The notes under the pieces are model-generated. The model was not told where the DNA came from and made no database searches. It saw only the letters and a list, made by a program, of their open reading frames with translations. Position numbers and translations under genes: made by a program. A stretch of DNA of 26,468 bases. Origin: a virus. Within the stretch, counting starts at the first letter, position 1. Each line of letters starts with the position of its first letter. The DNA is taken from the IMG/VR virus record IMGVR_UViG_3300030117_000134, positions 1 to 26,468 of that record; one strand, 5' to 3'. Below, one piece after another: positions 19,829-26,468 of the stretch.

Positions 19829-22270
19829 TTATCTTGCATTGGCATACTTGAATGGCTGTTCAGCGAAGGCGAGGTAGAGGAACGTGCTACCGTCTCCATT
19901 TTGTTCGCCGCTCGAACCTCTTAACTTAAATCCGTTAGATAATAAATCTATGTTGAAAGTGCTACTTGTGTCCTCTTGGACATTGTTATCTGCCTCAAGT
20001 CTAGCGTTAATTACGTTGAAGGGGTTGGGTCTTTTGTTATCAAAGAGCTTCCAAGAACCTGATGTACTGGTGCGTTTCAACAGTAACCATGCTGGCCTGA
20101 AACCTGTATAAACAAACTGACCATCAGCATTGCCATTGCCAATGTAAGTACCAACCTTGCTGTAACCTTCAACGTCGTGAAAACAATACGCTACATATGT
20201 TTTAGTGCTTTGATTTAAATCAGCGAAAGTTCCTAAAGAAAACACAGTTGATGTAGTCGCCGTATCATTAAATGCCCCTACTGCATCTGTTGCCTCAACG
20301 GATGAATTTAATAGCAAGTAATCAGTCTCGTTTACCAGCCCGAAACCGGCTGATCCCGCTCTAGCATAGACGAGCCAATTGCCATCTGCACTTGTAGCTA
20401 CTCTTGATTTTATAAAAATCATTGTGGGAGCCGAAGTTAAACCGTGACCAACAGTGTCGCCATTTGTACCTGTGCCTGTGTATGTAACAATACTAAACCC
20501 ACTTTCAGTGCTTGCCGATACGCTGCTTGTAATGTCTCCGTCACTATTACTAACAGCCGTGCCGCCAGCTTTCCAGTTCCACGCAACGTAGGTTGCACCA
20601 CTGTTTCCGCCCCAGACCCCAGAACCAGAACCTGATCCTATTGTAAATCCGTCAGAGTCAAAACTTTGAAGACCCTGTGCATCAGTTGACTCCGCATTAG
20701 TTAGGTCTGGAAATAAAGTTTTGGTTACTCCTCGAATCACATCAGAGGTTGCGTGACTGTCAGCGGCAGAACGCTTCTTAGCCCAGACCCAGTCTGGTTG
20801 AAATCCTACTCCTGTGATTGATAGAGTTGTTGCACCAGTTCCCGTATAAGTCACCGTGTTGAAGTACTCGTCTGGCGTTTCGCCCTTATTCGGATCAATG
20901 CCGGGATCAGGCAATTCAGCAGCAGAAAAAGCGGTATACCCCGCAGGTGGAGTTGTTCCCCAATCACTAGGATCATCTTTTAAAGTAATGATAGCGGGAG
21001 TGCCAGCATGTATACCACCTGCACCTACCGTCAGCAGAGTATTCGCCGTGAAAGTAAAGTGTGGGTTAGTACCGTTTGCAATGTCAGGCGTACCATTTAC
21101 AGTTTGCACCGTGCCGTTTAAAGCAAAGAAACCTTTGCCAGCATCAAAATCTATATAAACACCAACACGATCATTTACGCTGCGGAATTTTGTAGGCGTG
21201 CCCTGATTAACCCCGCTGTCGTTAATAGAGGCCGCAGCATCGCTTGATCCACCCGCGTTATAACTACCTTCAAAATTAGACGAGTCACCACTTCCAATAT
21301 CTGAAAAATCTTTCCCCTCGCTAACAACAAAAATAGTTTGGCTATCGCCGCTGTTACCATCATAAGTTCTGTCTAGGTTAAATTCACAATAAGCCTTACC
21401 CTCGTTGCGGAATATTGTCAGTGGCACTCCTGAAAAACCACTGCTACCAGATGTGAAGCTAATTGTTTTGTTGCCGTCAGATAGAGTGGTGCTGTGTTTT
21501 AGGTCTTTAAGTAGGTAATTAAAAGTTGGCTTGTTATCCGTAGGGGCGTCCGGCATTTGATCTGTGGTAGCAAAATTGTTTGCTGTAAAATCGTGACCGT
21601 TCCCACTAGTGTCGTCACCAAAAGAAGAACTATCTTGAAAAGCAAGTCTAAACCCGTTGGTGCCGTAGCTGCCGCTAAATTCTTTAGGCACCCAAATACC
21701 GTTTTTTGTTACTCCGAATGAAGTAGGGTCGTGGCTAGTTCCGTCAACAAAATTCATTTCTGCCAGATAGCCATCGAAATGTTGACCTGTTCCCCCAAAT
21801 CTTCCTACGTTATGTGCTACTGTGTGGTTAAAATAACCGTTTGAGCTGGCTCTTGATTCGGTCTGTAACTCTTGTTGAACACCGTTAACATAAATTTCAG
21901 AGCTTGACCCACTTCGTTGAACAAGGATGTGATACCAAGCAGACGTGTCTCTAAACGAAGCAGATGTTTTAAGATGATTTTGAGCGGAACCACCAACGAA
22001 ATATATGTATCTAATGCAATCATCACTATCAAATCTTATATATTCAAAATCATTTGCCCCAGAATACGCACTAAACATGTTAGCTGAAGAATAGCTAAGA
22101 TTGCCACGCTTTACCCAACAACTCCATGTCCATATTGTTCTGCTTCCTGTGCTTGACGGTGTGCGGTTTAAGTACGGACTATCATCATCGTTAAAGCGCA
22201 ACGACTGCTCTATACTAAAATCATAAAACCCGGTGCTACCGCCACCACCGATACCAAGAATACCACTCAT
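19829..22270 (-). CDS. Tail fibre with LamG-like and SPRY-like domains (813 aa)
   Basis: Residues 25-185 resemble a concanavalin-type LamG domain: WTWSCWVKRG, then SAWYHILVQRSG, EIYVNGVQQ and FDGYLAEMNFVDG, the usual order of strands in these sugar-binding-like folds. Residues 290-425 resemble SPRY/B30.2, with GKAYCEFNLDR and DRVGVYIDFDAGKGFFALNG. Residues 470-806 contain three related modules of about 100 residues, each starting with a T-Y-x-G-x-G element and ending near T-Y-V-A-(W/Y) or F-L-Y-L-A-F. This layout recurs in marine phage fibre proteins. It likely recognises a surface polysaccharide, though the ligand is unknown. The start overlaps the previous stop by four bases (ATGA). A very Gly-rich start (GILGIGGGGSTG) may be a flexible linker. 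Confidence 0.75.
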   Translation of the reverse strand: MSGILGIGGGGSTGFYDFSIEQSLRFNDDDSPYLNRTPSSTGSRTIWTWSCWVKRGNLSYSSANMFSAYSGANDFEYIRFDSDDCIRYIYFVGGSAQNHLKTSASFRDTSAWYHILVQRSGSSSEIYVNGVQQELQTESRASSNGYFNHTVAHNVGRFGGTGQHFDGYLAEMNFVDGTSHDPTSFGVTKNGIWVPKEFSGSYGTNGFRLAFQDSSSFGDDTSGNGHDFTANNFATTDQMPDAPTDNKPTFNYLLKDLKHSTTLSDGNKTISFTSGSSGFSGVPLTIFRNEGKAYCEFNLDRTYDGNSGDSQTIFVVSEGKDFSDIGSGDSSNFEGSYNAGGSSDAAASINDSGVNQGTPTKFRSVNDRVGVYIDFDAGKGFFALNGTVQTVNGTPDIANGTNPHFTFTANTLLTVGAGGIHAGTPAIITLKDDPSDWGTTPPAGYTAFSAAELPDPGIDPNKGETPDEYFNTVTYTGTGATTLSITGVGFQPDWVWAKKRSAADSHATSDVIRGVTKTLFPDLTNAESTDAQGLQSFDSDGFTIGSGSGSGVWGGNSGATYVAWNWKAGGTAVSNSDGDITSSVSASTESGFSIVTYTGTGTNGDTVGHGLTSAPTMIFIKSRVATSADGNWLVYARAGSAGFGLVNETDYLLLNSSVEATDAVGAFNDTATTSTVFSLGTFADLNQSTKTYVAYCFHDVEGYSKVGTYIGNGNADGQFVYTGFRPAWLLLKRTSTSGSWKLFDNKRPNPFNVINARLEADNNVQEDTSSTFNIDLLSNGFKLRGSSGEQNGDGSTFLYLAFAEQPFKYANAR
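19853..20863 (-). repeat. Three related ~100-residue modules in the 813-aa fibre
   Basis: Modules begin near residues 470 (FNTVTYTGTGATTLSITGVG), 592 (FSIVTYTGTGTNGDTVGHGL) and 703 (YSKVGTYIGNGNADGQFVYTG). Each continues with an aromatic element: QPDWVWAKKR, APTMIFIKSR and RPAWLLLKRT. They are diverged copies of one domain. Confidence 0.75.
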
Positions 22271-22761
22271 TTTGTGTCCAAAGCCCTTCCGATTTCGTGC
22301 AGGTTTGTACCGTCGGATACAAAGACAAGTTGATCGCGCGCACTGGCAGTCGTCGTAAGCGTCGGAGCCGTGCCACCAACAAACTTAAACACAGAGTTGA
22401 ACGTGGCTGTGCGCGAACCTGTGCTATCCTGTTTAATTATCAAAACGTATGCTGCGCCGTCAACCTGATTTGTTGGCGCACCGAAAGTACGATTGCCGCC
22501 TAGCGTAACACTCGTCACCTGATTAGCAGAAGTATCCCACGCGATTGTGGAAGCGTCTGTAAGTGTCGTTGCATTGAAGTTCTGGGTAGCTGTAAACTCT
22601 TGCGCCGTCTTCAGGTTCGCAACAGCGAAACCGCCTGCCTGCGAATTATCATGGACAATCAAAGTATCCTTGTCGGTATCAACCGTGACCTCGCCTACCG
22701 CGCCGGTAAAGGAGCCATGTTGAGAGGTCGTCCCCCGTCTAAGCTGTACTTGCTGTGCCAT
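22267..22761 (-). CDS. Fibre-type protein with Mtd-N-like start and shared C-terminal module (164 aa)
   Basis: Residues 3-50 (QVQLRRGTTSQHGSFTGAVG, then EVTVDTDKDTLIVHDN) match the pattern of the N-terminal domain of Bordetella-phage major tropism determinant proteins, in which it forms the trimeric stalk. Residues 53-164 match the last 117 residues of the 709-aa fibre (NFNATTLTDASTIAWDTS and FGAPTNQVDG, for example). The C-terminal module, ending FVSDGTNLHEIGRALD, is widespread in marine phage fibre proteins. No adenine-specific variable region or reverse transcriptase is visible, so there is no sign of a diversity-generating element. Start and stop overlap neighbours by one and four bases. 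Confidence 0.7.
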   Translation of the reverse strand: MAQQVQLRRGTTSQHGSFTGAVGEVTVDTDKDTLIVHDNSQAGGFAVANLKTAQEFTATQNFNATTLTDASTIAWDTSANQVTSVTLGGNRTFGAPTNQVDGAAYVLIIKQDSTGSRTATFNSVFKFVGGTAPTLTTTASARDQLVFVSDGTNLHEIGRALDTK

Positions 22762-24077
22762 TAAGCTATTGCTCCATAATCTTGTGAACTAGCGGCTGAC
22801 CCTGTAATCAAGCCAAAATCTAAATCGCCAAGACCTAAATCTGATACAACCTCTGTTGCTGATCTGCCTTCTATCGAAGTTCCGTTTACGCGCAAGAAGT
22901 CATCGTCTGCAACGCCGGATGTAAATACTGGGACGTTACCGTTGCTGATGCCTGTAGCTGCGACAGCGGCTGTGCCTAGTCCGATATCAGATCGAACCTC
23001 TGACGCGCTTCGGCTTTCTAGTCCACTTGCAGTAAATCTAGCAAACTCGTCATCCGCTACAGAAGAACTGTCAATCTTGACTGCGTTGGTATTGCTGATG
23101 CCAAAAGTGAGACTAGCTTGACCACCAATGTCAGATAGCACCTCACTGGTTGACCGACTTTCTAGGCCATTGGCTGTGAAACGTGCGTACTCATCATCTG
23201 CTACGGAAGAACTGTCAATCTTAACTGCATTGGTGTTTGATATGCCAAAGGTTAAAGACGCCTGACCGCCAATATCCGACAGCACCTCTGATGTTGATCG
23301 ACTCTCCAAACCGTTTGCAGTAAATCGTGCGTATTCGTCATCAGCGACCGAACTGCTGTCTATCTTAACCGCGTTTGTATTGCTGATGCCAAAGGTAAGA
23401 CTAGCTTGACCACCGATATCAGACAAAACTTCGGATGCAGAACGTCCCTCTATATCTGTTCCGTTTACCCGTAAAAAATCGTCGTCTACAACGCCAGATG
23501 TAAATTTCGGTATATTTGTGTTAGATATGCCCGTGTCTAACACCGCTGCTGTACCAAGTCCCAAACTAGTTCTAGCTGTAGACCCAGACTCCGCTACAAA
23601 GTTTGCTCCGTCACCTACAATAAAATTACCGTTGGTAACTGCAAGGCCAGCTACGTCCTGTAGCTGTGCGTCGAGTCTGGCGTTAGGTACTGTGCCACTA
23701 GAAAGGTTGCTTGCGTTGAGTGCGGTGAGTGCGCTGCCATTAGCCGCTATGATATTCCCAGAGTCATCAAGAAACACCGCCTTCTCGGCTGGCTGTGTTA
23801 TAAAAACATCTCTAGTGCCAACGCCCCAGTCTACTTTGCCGCCGCTATTACTGGACTCTAAAACAGTATCACGAGCTAAAGTTGTGCCAGAACTTGCAAA
23901 TGTTCCCTTGCCAACTTCAAAGTTAGTGCCATCAGTGATGCAGTAATAGGTTTCGTCACCATTGCTTAGAACGCTCGTAAATGTTTGAAAACCAGTAGCG
24001 GCACCGCCAAGAGTAATTGTACCCTCACCAGTTGTAGTGGTAGTTTCTTTTACACGATCTTTTAGGACAAAGGCCAT
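22761..24077 (-). CDS. Repeat-containing tail fibre protein (438 aa)
   Basis: The N-terminus (about 1-105; LKDRVKETTTTTGEGTITLG, YYCITDGTNFEVGKGTF, VFITQPAEKAVFLDDSGN) is a conserved virion-attachment-like region found in many phage fibre proteins. Residues 167-407 are five units of about 48 residues; units 2-4 share SEVLSDIGGQASLTFGISNT and are nearly identical. The end (about 408-438) is short and Gly/Ala/Ser-rich. The fibre unit probably forms a beta-rich trimer shaft. It lies among other fibre-type genes with one-base overlaps on both sides. Confidence 0.7.
   Translation of the reverse strand: MAFVLKDRVKETTTTTGEGTITLGGAATGFQTFTSVLSNGDETYYCITDGTNFEVGKGTFASSGTTLARDTVLESSNSGGKVDWGVGTRDVFITQPAEKAVFLDDSGNIIAANGSALTALNASNLSSGTVPNARLDAQLQDVAGLAVTNGNFIVGDGANFVAESGSTARTSLGLGTAAVLDTGISNTNIPKFTSGVVDDDFLRVNGTDIEGRSASEVLSDIGGQASLTFGISNTNAVKIDSSSVADDEYARFTANGLESRSTSEVLSDIGGQASLTFGISNTNAVKIDSSSVADDEYARFTANGLESRSTSEVLSDIGGQASLTFGISNTNAVKIDSSSVADDEFARFTASGLESRSASEVRSDIGLGTAAVAATGISNGNVPVFTSGVADDDFLRVNGTSIEGRSATEVVSDLGLGDLDFGLITGSAASSQDYGAIA
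23004..23435 (-). repeat. Three 48-residue (144-base) tandem repeats
   Basis: Residues 215-262 and 263-310 of the 438-aa fibre are identical in amino acids and 311-358 differ at only a few positions (EF for EY, TAS for TAN, SA for ST). The DNA copies nevertheless differ at many third positions and even switch Ser codon families. Diverged related units flank the array on both sides (22857-23003 and 23436-23579). Confidence 0.9.
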
Positions 24078-24514
24078 TACGCAATCCTAACTATCGCATT
24101 AGAGGCGTCTGCCGTCGGAAACGTAATCACAAAGTCACCGCTCGTAGATGTTTGGGTGCTGCCAAAGTCAAACACAGCAATCGCCTTGTTGCTTTGTGAC
24201 GAGTTGTAAATGATACACCCATCCGCAGACACACTCGCATTGGAGAAAGTCACATCCGTAAAGTCAACGTGTGCTGTGGTTCCGTCCGTTCCTATCGTTG
24301 CACCTGACAGAGTAGCACCACCTGTTGTGTATCCTGTCCCTGATGCTTCGTCAGAATTACCCGTTACGTTAGAATAATTTGTTGTTGCCGCACCATACGT
24401 ACCAGATGGACTGGCTTTTATAAGAGCTAACTTCAACGTGTTTGTGTCGAGATCATGCGTACCTCCAAGCAGTTCACTCTTGAACGAGGTACACATTGCG
24501 GTGGTAATCGACAT
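24077..24514 (-). CDS. Small beta-rich virion candidate (145 aa)
   Basis: This matches a small phage protein family I know from many tailed phages, with the hallmarks FKSELLGGTHDLDTNTLKLA, G-T-G-Y-T-x-G-G-A-T-L, HVDFTDVTFSNASVSADGC, and TFPTADASNAIVRIA at the end. Its function is undetermined; it is usually found among virion or tail genes. Ser, Thr and Gly dominate and there is no signal peptide. The gene overlaps the 438-aa fibre gene by one base and follows the 128-aa gene by five bases. Confidence 0.65.
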   Translation of the reverse strand: MSITTAMCTSFKSELLGGTHDLDTNTLKLALIKASPSGTYGAATTNYSNVTGNSDEASGTGYTTGGATLSGATIGTDGTTAHVDFTDVTFSNASVSADGCIIYNSSQSNKAIAVFDFGSTQTSTSGDFVITFPTADASNAIVRIA

Positions 24515-24519
24515 AGCTA

Positions 24520-24906
24520 TTACGCCTCTGTGATCGTGATTGCACCTGATGCAAAACGAAGTGTGTCTCCGTCTGCGATAGTTTTGGAAGCCGTCAGGGC
24601 ACCGTAGTACAGTAAGTTCCCAGCAGTGGAAGCATCGTGGATTCCGAAGTGTGTTATTGTACCAAAAGCACCGCCACTAGCTGTAAACTCTTCTACCGAG
24701 TTACTTGCGGCTGAACCACTACTAGCTGCAGCAAATGTTATAGCTTGACGCGAATATCCGTTTCCAGATATTTCGTTACCATCATCTTCACCCGGACTTG
24801 ACGTATGCAAAGAAAGATACACAGCAGAGGGCGCAGAAGTGGAAGACGTTCCTAAGAAGTGGTCAAGAACCTTTAGCTCCAAGTAATTGGATTTTGCGTC
24901 TGACAT
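24520..24906 (-). CDS. Small phage virion protein of the L-x-L-H-T-S-x-P-G type (128 aa)
   Basis: The signature is VYLSLHTSSPGEDDGNEISG followed by GYSRQAITF and later ITHFGIHDASTAGNLLYYG. I know it from small structural proteins of tailed phages annotated as tail fibre-like or minor tail proteins. The start (NYLELKVLDHFLG) is a helix and the rest is beta. It is like the 145-aa neighbour in size and composition, and the two may be distant relatives. No enzyme motif. Followed after five bases by the 145-aa gene. Confidence 0.6.
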   Translation of the reverse strand: MSDAKSNYLELKVLDHFLGTSSTSAPSAVYLSLHTSSPGEDDGNEISGNGYSRQAITFAAASSGSAASNSVEEFTASGGAFGTITHFGIHDASTAGNLLYYGALTASKTIADGDTLRFASGAITITEA

Positions 24907-24917
24907 AATTTACTCCC

Positions 24918-25259
24918 TTATGTCTTGTTTGGATCGTACCTCTCCTCAACAGAGACGGTTACGAGTATAGTGTTAGCGGTTGTTGCCGTAGCATAGATAA
25001 TATCTCCCGCGTCTAGAAATAGTGGAGAATTCATGTCCACCAGTGCTACAGAGGAGTTAGACGATATGGCACGTGCCTCGAATATGTTAAACGTACCAGC
25101 CCCGTCATTCCTCTGTATAAGTATGTTTCGATTAGTCGAATCTGTATTAGATAAAATAATAGCCTGCACCACAGACGAATGATTGGCAGGCACCGTGTAC
25201 ACTGTTGTCTGGTTCGTCGTGGTCAAGTCTACTGACTTCGTAATTAGTTTGGTAGCCAC
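24918..25259 (-). CDS. Small beta-rich phage protein (113 aa)
   Basis: Residues 8-105 alternate beta strands and turns (QTTVYTVPANHSSVVQAIIL, NRNILIQRNDG, FNIFEARAISSN, PLFLDAGDIIYATAT, ILVTVSVEERYDPN). The pattern Y-T-V-P-A-x-H-x3-V-x-A-I-x-L-x-N and L-D-A-G-D resembles small phage structural proteins with a single jelly-roll or beta sandwich. Function not known; by context a virion accessory protein. The start overlaps the DUF5872-like gene by one base and the stop lies 11 bases before the 128-aa gene. Confidence 0.6.
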   Translation of the reverse strand: MATKLITKSVDLTTTNQTTVYTVPANHSSVVQAIILSNTDSTNRNILIQRNDGAGTFNIFEARAISSNSSVALVDMNSPLFLDAGDIIYATATTANTILVTVSVEERYDPNKT

Positions 25260-25519
25260 TAGCGAACCTTTCTGTATGCGCGCGTCTTCTTCGCTATCTT
25301 CTTAGGCTGCTTCGAAACCTGCTTACCGGCCTTCGTCGCCTTACGCTTTGCACGAGTCGTAGCAGCGTACTCTTTCGCGGAGAGCGCCTTAATAGCTTTT
25401 TCCGGTAGATATCTCTCCCCGGTAGCTTTCGGACCTTGTGTGGACGGCTTGCCACTCCGCGTACGCCACTTCTGTTTAGTCCATGCGGTCAAAGAGCGTT
25501 GGCTCTTTTTCTTCGGCAT
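25259..25519 (-). CDS. Basic DUF5872-like protein (86 aa)
   Basis: The core SLTAWTKQKWRTRSGKPSTQ, then ERYLPEKAIKALSAKEYAAT, is the pattern I associate with DUF5872 proteins of phages, giant viruses and algae. Their function is unknown. Lys and Arg are abundant and the end is QPKKIAKKTRAYRKVR, so nucleic-acid binding is likely. Conserved Trp, Tyr and basic residues suggest a small folded core with a disordered basic tail. The first 44 bases overlap the 83-aa gene in another frame. Family assignment is from memory of the pattern. Confidence 0.65.
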   Translation of the reverse strand: MPKKKSQRSLTAWTKQKWRTRSGKPSTQGPKATGERYLPEKAIKALSAKEYAATTRAKRKATKAGKQVSKQPKKIAKKTRAYRKVR

Positions 25520-25727
25520 CCTCTATCTCCATCGTAAGCGTAGCCAGTGCGGCCAGTTTATCTTGAGCCTCTCCCCACTTCTCAAGCGCTGTATCCATCT
25601 CTTGCAAAAGACCCGGATGTTCACCGACGCCAGCAGGACGATCAAAGTAAACTTGGAATACAAACTCTGCATCTGCCATATCCGCTTGATATTTGTGCCG
25701 CAAGGCATCTATTGCTAATTTGTGCAT
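25476..25727 (-). CDS. Acidic small protein (83 aa), first gene after a promoter
   Basis: A mostly helical protein: residues 1-31 (MHKLAIDALRHKYQADMADA), a conserved-looking FDRPAGVGEHPGLLQEMD (about 28-45), a helix EKWGEAQDKLAALATLTMEI, and an acidic end (EDAEEKEP). I have seen such sequences in marine phage genomes without a function. AGGAG lies five bases before the ATG at 25727. It is the gene immediately downstream of the predicted promoter, and its last 44 bases overlap the start of the basic DUF5872-like gene. Confidence 0.65.
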   Translation of the reverse strand: MHKLAIDALRHKYQADMADAEFVFQVYFDRPAGVGEHPGLLQEMDTALEKWGEAQDKLAALATLTMEIEDAEEKEPTLFDRMD

Positions 25728-25732
25728 GGTAT

Positions 25733-25737
25733 CTCCT
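25733..25737 (-). promoter_or_regulatory. Strong ribosome-binding site
   Basis: AGGAG on the minus strand, five bases upstream of the ATG at 25727. It fixes the start of the 83-aa gene and sits in a very short leader downstream of the predicted promoter. Confidence 0.75.
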
Positions 25738-25747
25738 GACTACATAT

Positions 25748-25776
25748 ATTGTAGCATAAACACATAAAATTTACAA
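25748..25776 (-). promoter_or_regulatory. Predicted sigma70-type promoter
   Basis: On the minus strand TTGTAA (25776-25771; four of six matches to TTGACA) is followed by exactly 17 bases and TACAAT (25753-25748; five of six matches to TATAAT). The region is AT-rich and is the largest gap between late genes (54 bases). A start near 25741 would give a leader of about 14 bases with AGGAG inside. It would drive the 83-aa gene and, with readthrough, the fibre and tail genes. Unproven; host RNA polymerase is the likely user. Confidence 0.6.
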
Positions 25777-25781
25777 GAAAA

Positions 25782-26213
25782 TTATAGTCTGCCCTGTACG
25801 TGTAAGACTATCAAGATAACCGCAGCAAAAATGCTGGCAATCACGATTAGAAGAAATGATATTATGGCTACTTCAATGTGATGCTTGCGCCTTCGTATCC
25901 GCTCTTCTTCTGCTTCTCTCCGAGCAACCCGCGCTTTTGCTTGAAAGCGTTGCCAGTCACCCCACAGTCCGGGACGACCGGCATAGATCATTATCTGTTT
26001 TAATTGTTCTTCTTGTTCGCGTATTTGTTCGAGAGCCATAAACTCTTCGAGGTCGGAGCCACCACCTTTTTTCTGTGCCTTTCTTTGTAGCTGTTCTTTT
26101 GCCCCTACAAAGTTAGCAATCGCCTTACCAGCACTGGCAATCTCCTTGCCGTTCTGGACAGCACTTTTGATCACAGCAAAGGCGGCGTTTGCGGCAGCAA
26201 GTTCGGCAAGCAT
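25782..26213 (-). CDS. Coiled-coil protein with C-terminal transmembrane helix (143 aa)
   Basis: Residues 1-37 are Ala-rich and mildly hydrophobic (AELAAANAAFAVIKSAVQNG). Residues 53-110 are charged helix (LEEFMALEQIREQEEQLKQI), broken by a conserved-looking YAGRPGLWGDWQRFQAKAR. Residues 114-137 form one strong membrane helix (EVAIISFLLIVIASIFAAVI). A very basic stretch (EEERIRRRKHH) precedes it, so by the positive-inside rule the long N-terminal part is probably cytoplasmic. I have seen this pattern in marine phages, usually without a function. A lysis accessory (holin- or spanin-like) or a membrane-bound assembly protein is possible. The ATG at 26213 overlaps the 62-aa gene stop by one base. 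Confidence 0.6.
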   Translation of the reverse strand: MLAELAAANAAFAVIKSAVQNGKEIASAGKAIANFVGAKEQLQRKAQKKGGGSDLEEFMALEQIREQEEQLKQIMIYAGRPGLWGDWQRFQAKARVARREAEEERIRRRKHHIEVAIISFLLIVIASIFAAVILIVLHVQGRL

Positions 26214-26401
26214 TAATAGACTCGTACTTTATCATTTACTAGTTTCGGTAGGCAGTACGCCGTGACCGTGCGACCTTGTTCGTGTAGCTTTTGTGCGTAC
26301 CACTTGCACTCTCGTAGGTCGCGAAAATACAAATCGTTACTGACCAGACGCTTATCATCCCCTAGCCCAAGAAAGACAAACAGGAGAAAGGCGTGCTGCA
26401 T
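26213..26401 (-). CDS. Small protein with signal-like N-terminus (62 aa)
   Basis: MQHAFLLFVFLGLGDDKRLV begins with a short hydrophobic stretch (residues 4-13) that could be a signal or anchor. A helix follows with YFRDLRECKWYAQKLHEQG (25-43) and a strand with VTAYCLPKLV (45-54). Two Cys residues could pair outside the cytoplasm. The plan resembles the 69-aa protein at 1140-1349. It overlaps the upstream partial gene by one base (TAATG) and the 143-aa gene by one base. Function unknown. Confidence 0.55.
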   Translation of the reverse strand: MQHAFLLFVFLGLGDDKRLVSNDLYFRDLRECKWYAQKLHEQGRTVTAYCLPKLVNDKVRVY

Positions 26402-26466
26402 TAGTCTCTGTAGCCGCCCCCTGCTTTTTTGTAGGCAGAAGCCAGCATTTGCGCTTTTCTCGCACT
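26401..26466 (-). CDS. Partial gene, C-terminal 21 residues only
   Basis: Reading leftward from the window edge, an open frame ends at TAA (26403-26401). It gives SARKAQMLASAYKKAGGGY followed by RD. The stop overlaps the next ATG as TAATG, the same coupling as its neighbours, which supports it as a real gene. The basic, Gly-rich end is typical of small phage proteins, but the protein cannot be identified from so little. Confidence 0.55.
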   Translation of the reverse strand, partial: SARKAQMLASAYKKAGGGYRD

Positions 26467-26468
26467 CC

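Follow-up and report, generated by a model that had tools for sequence, protein, structure and literature searches.

Persi, Wolf and Koonin (2016, PMC5120217) described protein repeats in which each single copy stays conserved from one species to another. In the sections of PMC3909814 drawn on here, marine phage fibres consist of a conserved N-terminal part followed by a fibre-specific stretch of repeats, and the genes for host recognition, which appear as metaviromic islands, vary and are exchanged more than most.

The DNA analysed here, called the window, is a 26,468-nucleotide viral sequence (IMG/VR record IMGVR_UViG_3300030117_000134, positions 1 to 26,468). It encodes a 438-aa protein in which a conserved N-terminal part of ~100 aa is followed by a linker and five repeats of 47-48 residues. 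The tandem units carry the pattern GISNTN...DDE(Y/F)ARFT...GLESRS...SEV.SDIG. The features are as follows.

22761..24077, minus strand: putative tail-fibre protein, 438 aa; open reading frame with N-terminal matches to annotated tail fibres
23409..23552, minus strand: repeat unit 1, type B (...NIPKFTSGVVDDDFLRVNG...); profile match of 86.5 bits
23265..23408, minus strand: repeat unit 2, type A; 48/48 residues shared with unit 3, codons differing at 33/48
23121..23264, minus strand: repeat unit 3, type A; all 48 residues shared with unit 2
22977..23120, minus strand: repeat unit 4, type A; 43/48 residues identical to units 2 and 3
22833..22976, minus strand: repeat unit 5, type B, a degenerate relative; profile match of 70.9 bits
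approx. 22865..23512, minus strand: array block common to the window and contig L082; 94-100% DNA identity, with different backbones

The N-terminal ~100 aa have 44-64% amino acid identity to annotated tail-fibre proteins of marine and freshwater phages, including Roseobacter phage CRP-6 and Manatee Spring phages. From its position and these matches the protein is most likely a tail-fibre protein. The repeats would form the shaft of the fibre, presumably a trimer in which every residue is structurally constrained, and changes in copy number may tune fibre length. The AlphaFold2 monomer is a weak model (mean pLDDT 53.8, pTM 0.22) in which each unit is, at modest confidence, a β-hairpin followed by a short helix. 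A Foldseek search with this model gave no match at E<=0.001, and a PDB sequence search gave no convincing match. The N-terminal domain of T7-type tail fibres (PF03906) is absent among the fibre's Pfam matches at E<=0.01. Matches of the repeats to Pfam ASC and DUF4946 and to an NCBIfam degenerin family were judged spurious. The ASC (sodium channel) match on the repeats of 22761-24077 reaches 33.2 bits against a gathering score of 23.6, and such a false positive could mislead automatic annotation of fibres with these repeats.

The preliminary description reported that units 2 and 3 have the same 48 residues and that unit 4 has nearly the same. This was confirmed: units 2 and 3 share 48/48 residues, and unit 4 differs from both at five. 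Units 2 and 3 use the same codon at 15 positions and synonymous codons at the other 33, with no nonsynonymous difference; in DNA they differ at 41/144 nt, of which 31 are third positions. The DSSSVADDE stretch shows exactly the 7/9 codon differences noted before, including the Ser change from AGT to TCT. The interval given earlier, 23004-23435, is the same array with its unit boundaries moved by 27 nt, and the choice of boundaries in a tandem repeat is arbitrary. As a null for codon sharing, codons were drawn independently from the window's own codon usage. Units 2 and 3 share 15 codons versus 15.8 expected (sd 3.1; P(<=15) = 0.46). Units 2 and 4 share 20/43 codons, and units 3 and 4 share 16/43, each versus 14.1 expected. 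Sharing thus matches independent draws; the three units are at synonymous equilibrium and their divergence is no greater than chance gives.

Scans of IMG/VR yielded 105 distinct arrays; clustering at 90% unit identity reduced them to 38, which contain 91 type-A units. The repeat goes far beyond chance, as a single 48-residue profile hits 159 open reading frames in related loci. The cultured phages searched included none with this 48-residue repeat, bacterial and archaeal genomes gave a single match (150 nt in a Maricaulis MAG), and a literature search found no paper on it. Within the 38 representative arrays only 3/94 pairs are protein-identical, and the pair of units 2 and 3 is therefore the extreme of the family.

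The exact 48-mer of unit 2 is found in 17 arrays besides the window and its near-copy L082, at 67-78% DNA identity to the window units. Between representative arrays there are 34 protein-identical pairs, with 69-86% DNA identity. The sequence of units 2 and 3 is the family consensus, and the two neighbours agree in full because each has this consensus, which recurs in many unrelated phages. Orthologous arrays give a dS of 0.22, a dN of 0.011 and a dN/dS of about 0.05 (pooled over 95 non-independent pairs). The three type-A units differ between the window and L082 by 11 synonymous and 0 nonsynonymous changes. This ratio and the recurrence of the same 48-mer in many phages bear out the strong protein selection that had been proposed. 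Since the flanking genes, compared with contigs L083 and L030, have dN/dS values of 0.03-0.13, the constraint on the repeat is strong yet normal for this phage.

The age of the units is seen in the group of L052 (with L053, L113, L131-L133 and others). Corresponding units of different arrays in this group have mostly 85-99% DNA identity, whereas neighbouring units within one array have 65-79%, so the paralogues are old. Each unit has retained a DNA sequence distinct from its neighbours from a time before the arrays split. Convergence of unrelated units is disfavoured, since serines encoded by AGY alone, or nearly so, indicate shared descent: Ser36 of the type-A repeat (for example in the unit at 23265-23408) uses AGY codons in 86/86 representative units and Ser18 in 86/88. 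Most other type-A serines, unlike Ser36, use both codon families. The restriction at Ser36 probably reflects slow switching between codon families at a position that accepts no intermediate residue, or else a constraint at the nucleotide level. The AGT to TCT change need not be an impossible step. At positions 3, 9, 19, 38 and 40 relatives can have Ala, Gly or Thr, and all five positions use both Ser families; two-step routes are therefore available there. Homogenisation of the protein inside arrays was also considered. Residue agreement within arrays is above chance at positions 26, 36, 46, 47 and 48, and not at 10, 31 and 32; since the positions disagree there is no general array signature.

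Selection for dissimilar DNA predicts that units should be less alike inside an array than between arrays. The opposite was found. Among the 38 representative arrays, pairs of units from one array (94 pairs) have a synonymous codon identity of 0.459, versus 0.395 for pairs from different arrays (4001 pairs). When units were dealt randomly among arrays the mean was 0.396, and 0.459 was never reached in 300 trials. The expectation at saturation is 0.366 from pooled and 0.403 from column-specific codon usage. The longest identical runs are 18.1 nt within arrays versus 12.5 nt between. In a per-array test, shuffles were made with each fibre's own codons for 27 arrays (|z|>1.64). Eight of the 27 share more codons than their shuffles and three fewer (L068, L129 and L144; z below -1.64), and a few of the latter are expected by chance. 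Shared runs are longer than in the shuffles in 12/27 arrays and shorter in 1/27. Together with the 15 versus 15.8 codons of the window pair, these results do not uphold the earlier suggestion of selection for DNA dissimilarity. Nor is copy number conserved, as had been expected under that suggestion; the number of such repeats per array ranges from 1 to 9.

Patches, for example identical runs of 44-55 nt inside L019, L034 and L108, supply part of the within-array excess. They look like local recombination between units. L108 (IMGVR_UViG_3300030104_001062, 133-1906) is a ten-unit array in which identical runs reach 55 nt and the identity between units is the highest of any array, 91%; it is the array most likely to have expanded or undergone conversion recently.

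Some related arrays differ by a single unit. In these pairs the remaining units align, and one unit of the shorter array is a two-part hybrid of two neighbouring units of the longer array. The informative sites fall into two clean segments at 49/50 sites when L028 is derived from L008, and into two segments at 39/39 for L146 from L126, 37/39 for L141 from L126 and 44/47 for L128 from L052. No shuffle in 10000 equalled this fit. The two parents of a hybrid unit have 65-73% identity, with a tract of just 0-5 identical nt at the breakpoint. The simplest reading of these alignments is that in-register recombination deleted one unit, although a foreign unit may instead have been gained. The preliminary description suggested that divergence would limit recombination between copies. 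The hybrid junctions, which show occurrence and not rates, indicate that codon divergence is not a block to unit exchange.

The array in the window has a different history from its surroundings. The window backbone (24520-26468 and 22172-22826) is ~91% identical to L083 and L030, whereas the array region of these contigs is ~80% identical to the window, near the saturation level. Within the array block it is L082 that matches, with units 1, 2 and 3 corresponding in order to the type-A units of the window at 96.5, 98.6 and 97.2%. Identity to L082 drops to 0.86 at both edges (on one side at 23501-23550) and to about 0.5 (0.54) below ~22850, and outside the array L082 has just a 70% match over ~600 nt of window 24077-26468. 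A backbone at 91% to one set of contigs and an array at 94-100% to another argue that the array was swapped between phages as a block. The alternative raised earlier, import of units from related phages, is thus supported for the array as a block. Units matching a foreign phage, named before as a sign of ordinary recombination, do occur, in this block form.

Several other features are seen around the fibre gene. The adjacent gene at 24077-24514 is without a match in the examined part of L083 and L030, with both its flanks conserved, and is putatively replaced or inserted. At 24520-24906 the synonymous divergence from L083/L030 is ~1.1 versus ~0.2 in most neighbouring genes, which suggests another exchanged segment. 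On the other side lie a laminin-G/DUF7483 protein (19829-22270) and a small Mtd_N protein (22267-22761; Mtd_N is the N-terminal domain of major tropism determinant), both candidates for further host-recognition proteins. In the fibre open reading frame of L082 (IMGVR_UViG_3300020374_000016) the linker and the type-B module (NARLD.QLQDVAGLAVTNGNFIVGDG...) occur twice, around an unrelated segment, a modular duplication on a larger scale.

Neighbours with at least 95% DNA identity were found in 0/229 within-array type-A pairs. All arrays of the exact repeat come from contigs of uncultured viruses. Most of these are metagenome assemblies, where tandem units of 144 nt with the same DNA would tend to collapse or to break the contig. 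Because of this possibility the absence of near-identical neighbours is not readable as selection; assembly collapse could explain it, and 8/105 arrays end within 60 nt of the locus end. A partial control comes from cultured phages with other types of fibre repeat, in which codon identity is near expectation (0.49 versus 0.55 expected in HTVC106P gp54; 0.43 versus 0.40 in CRP-6 gp60). New DNA-identical units may also have been purged, being deleted before they diverged, or never made, the arrays growing with units of other phages. Either course seems unlikely. If either did occur, only codon-diverged arrays would persist; such a natural filter would yield fibre repeats that tolerate recombination, with no selection acting directly on their codons.

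The reading preferred here, with a probability of about 0.85, combines ancient paralogues, constraint of the protein to a consensus and block-wise movement of the array, and does without selection for DNA dissimilarity. In this reading the units are paralogues of great age, all versions of a single short repeat of the fibre shaft, kept by purifying selection at a single consensus protein sequence. The synonymous sites of neighbouring units have reached equilibrium, so that codons look independently drawn. The array is passed on with its units distinct from one another and is transferred between phages as a block, and in-register recombination produces related arrays one unit apart, with hybrid units left behind. 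Three points count against it. Growth by tandem duplication should sometimes yield fresh copies, and the 229 pairs contain none; three arrays of the 27 lie below their own codon shuffles; and the structural role rests on position, N-terminal matches and a model with a pTM of 0.22.

The closest rival is a mosaic, built up as units arrived one at a time, each from another phage. Units of one array are nearly as dissimilar as units taken from different phages, the array has been exchanged as a block, and the long identical runs inside some arrays are patchy, all of which would fit. However, the three type-A units of the window follow the order of L082 and so travelled together, and unit order is conserved in the L052 group; this mosaic is a rather unlikely alternative. 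Considerably less probable is a natural codon scrambling, in which neighbours with different codons are favoured since DNA-identical units recombine and vanish. The missing near-identical neighbours would follow from it, and the loss or gain of units by inter-unit recombination makes a cost of identity plausible. Against this, the window pair shares as many codons as random choice gives, units are more alike inside arrays, recombination happens anyway at 65-73% identity, and failure of short-read assembly on identical 144-nt tandem units would by itself keep such arrays out of the data. Recent duplication, or an artefact of assembly or sequencing, has a negligible chance of being correct. Assembly bias may account for what the data lack and nothing supports duplication, which the saturated synonymous sites rule out. 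An artefact is contradicted by the array being reproduced at 97-99% per unit in the independent metagenome contig L082, and by the recurrence of the family in 105 distinct arrays.

The locus is a worked case in which the same protein in different codons tempts toward a story of selection on DNA, when comparison with many relatives shows that age and protein constraint suffice. For uncultured marine phages, it provides a fibre repeat array that moves as a block between backbones. The hybrid units that join arrays one unit apart make changes in array length traceable at base resolution.

As in the repeats analysed by Persi, Wolf and Koonin (2016, PMC5120217), copies here are conserved between orthologues under purifying selection and paralogous copies diverge. 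In that study paralogues usually diverge faster in protein, under relaxed or positive selection; in the window fibre they are near-identical in protein and the divergence is in codons alone. The swapped array fits the variable host-recognition islands of marine phages in PMC3909814. The fibres in the sections of that paper considered here are T7-like with an N-terminal PF03906, which the window fibre does not match, and those sections deal with fibres and exchange and not with the codons of repeat units. Engineered codon diversification (e.g. PMC12365220) has the same look, a repeated protein encoded by dissimilar DNA, with the aim of less recombination. The engineered repeats are dissimilar on purpose, whereas in the family of the window similarity is at or above chance and the units still recombine.
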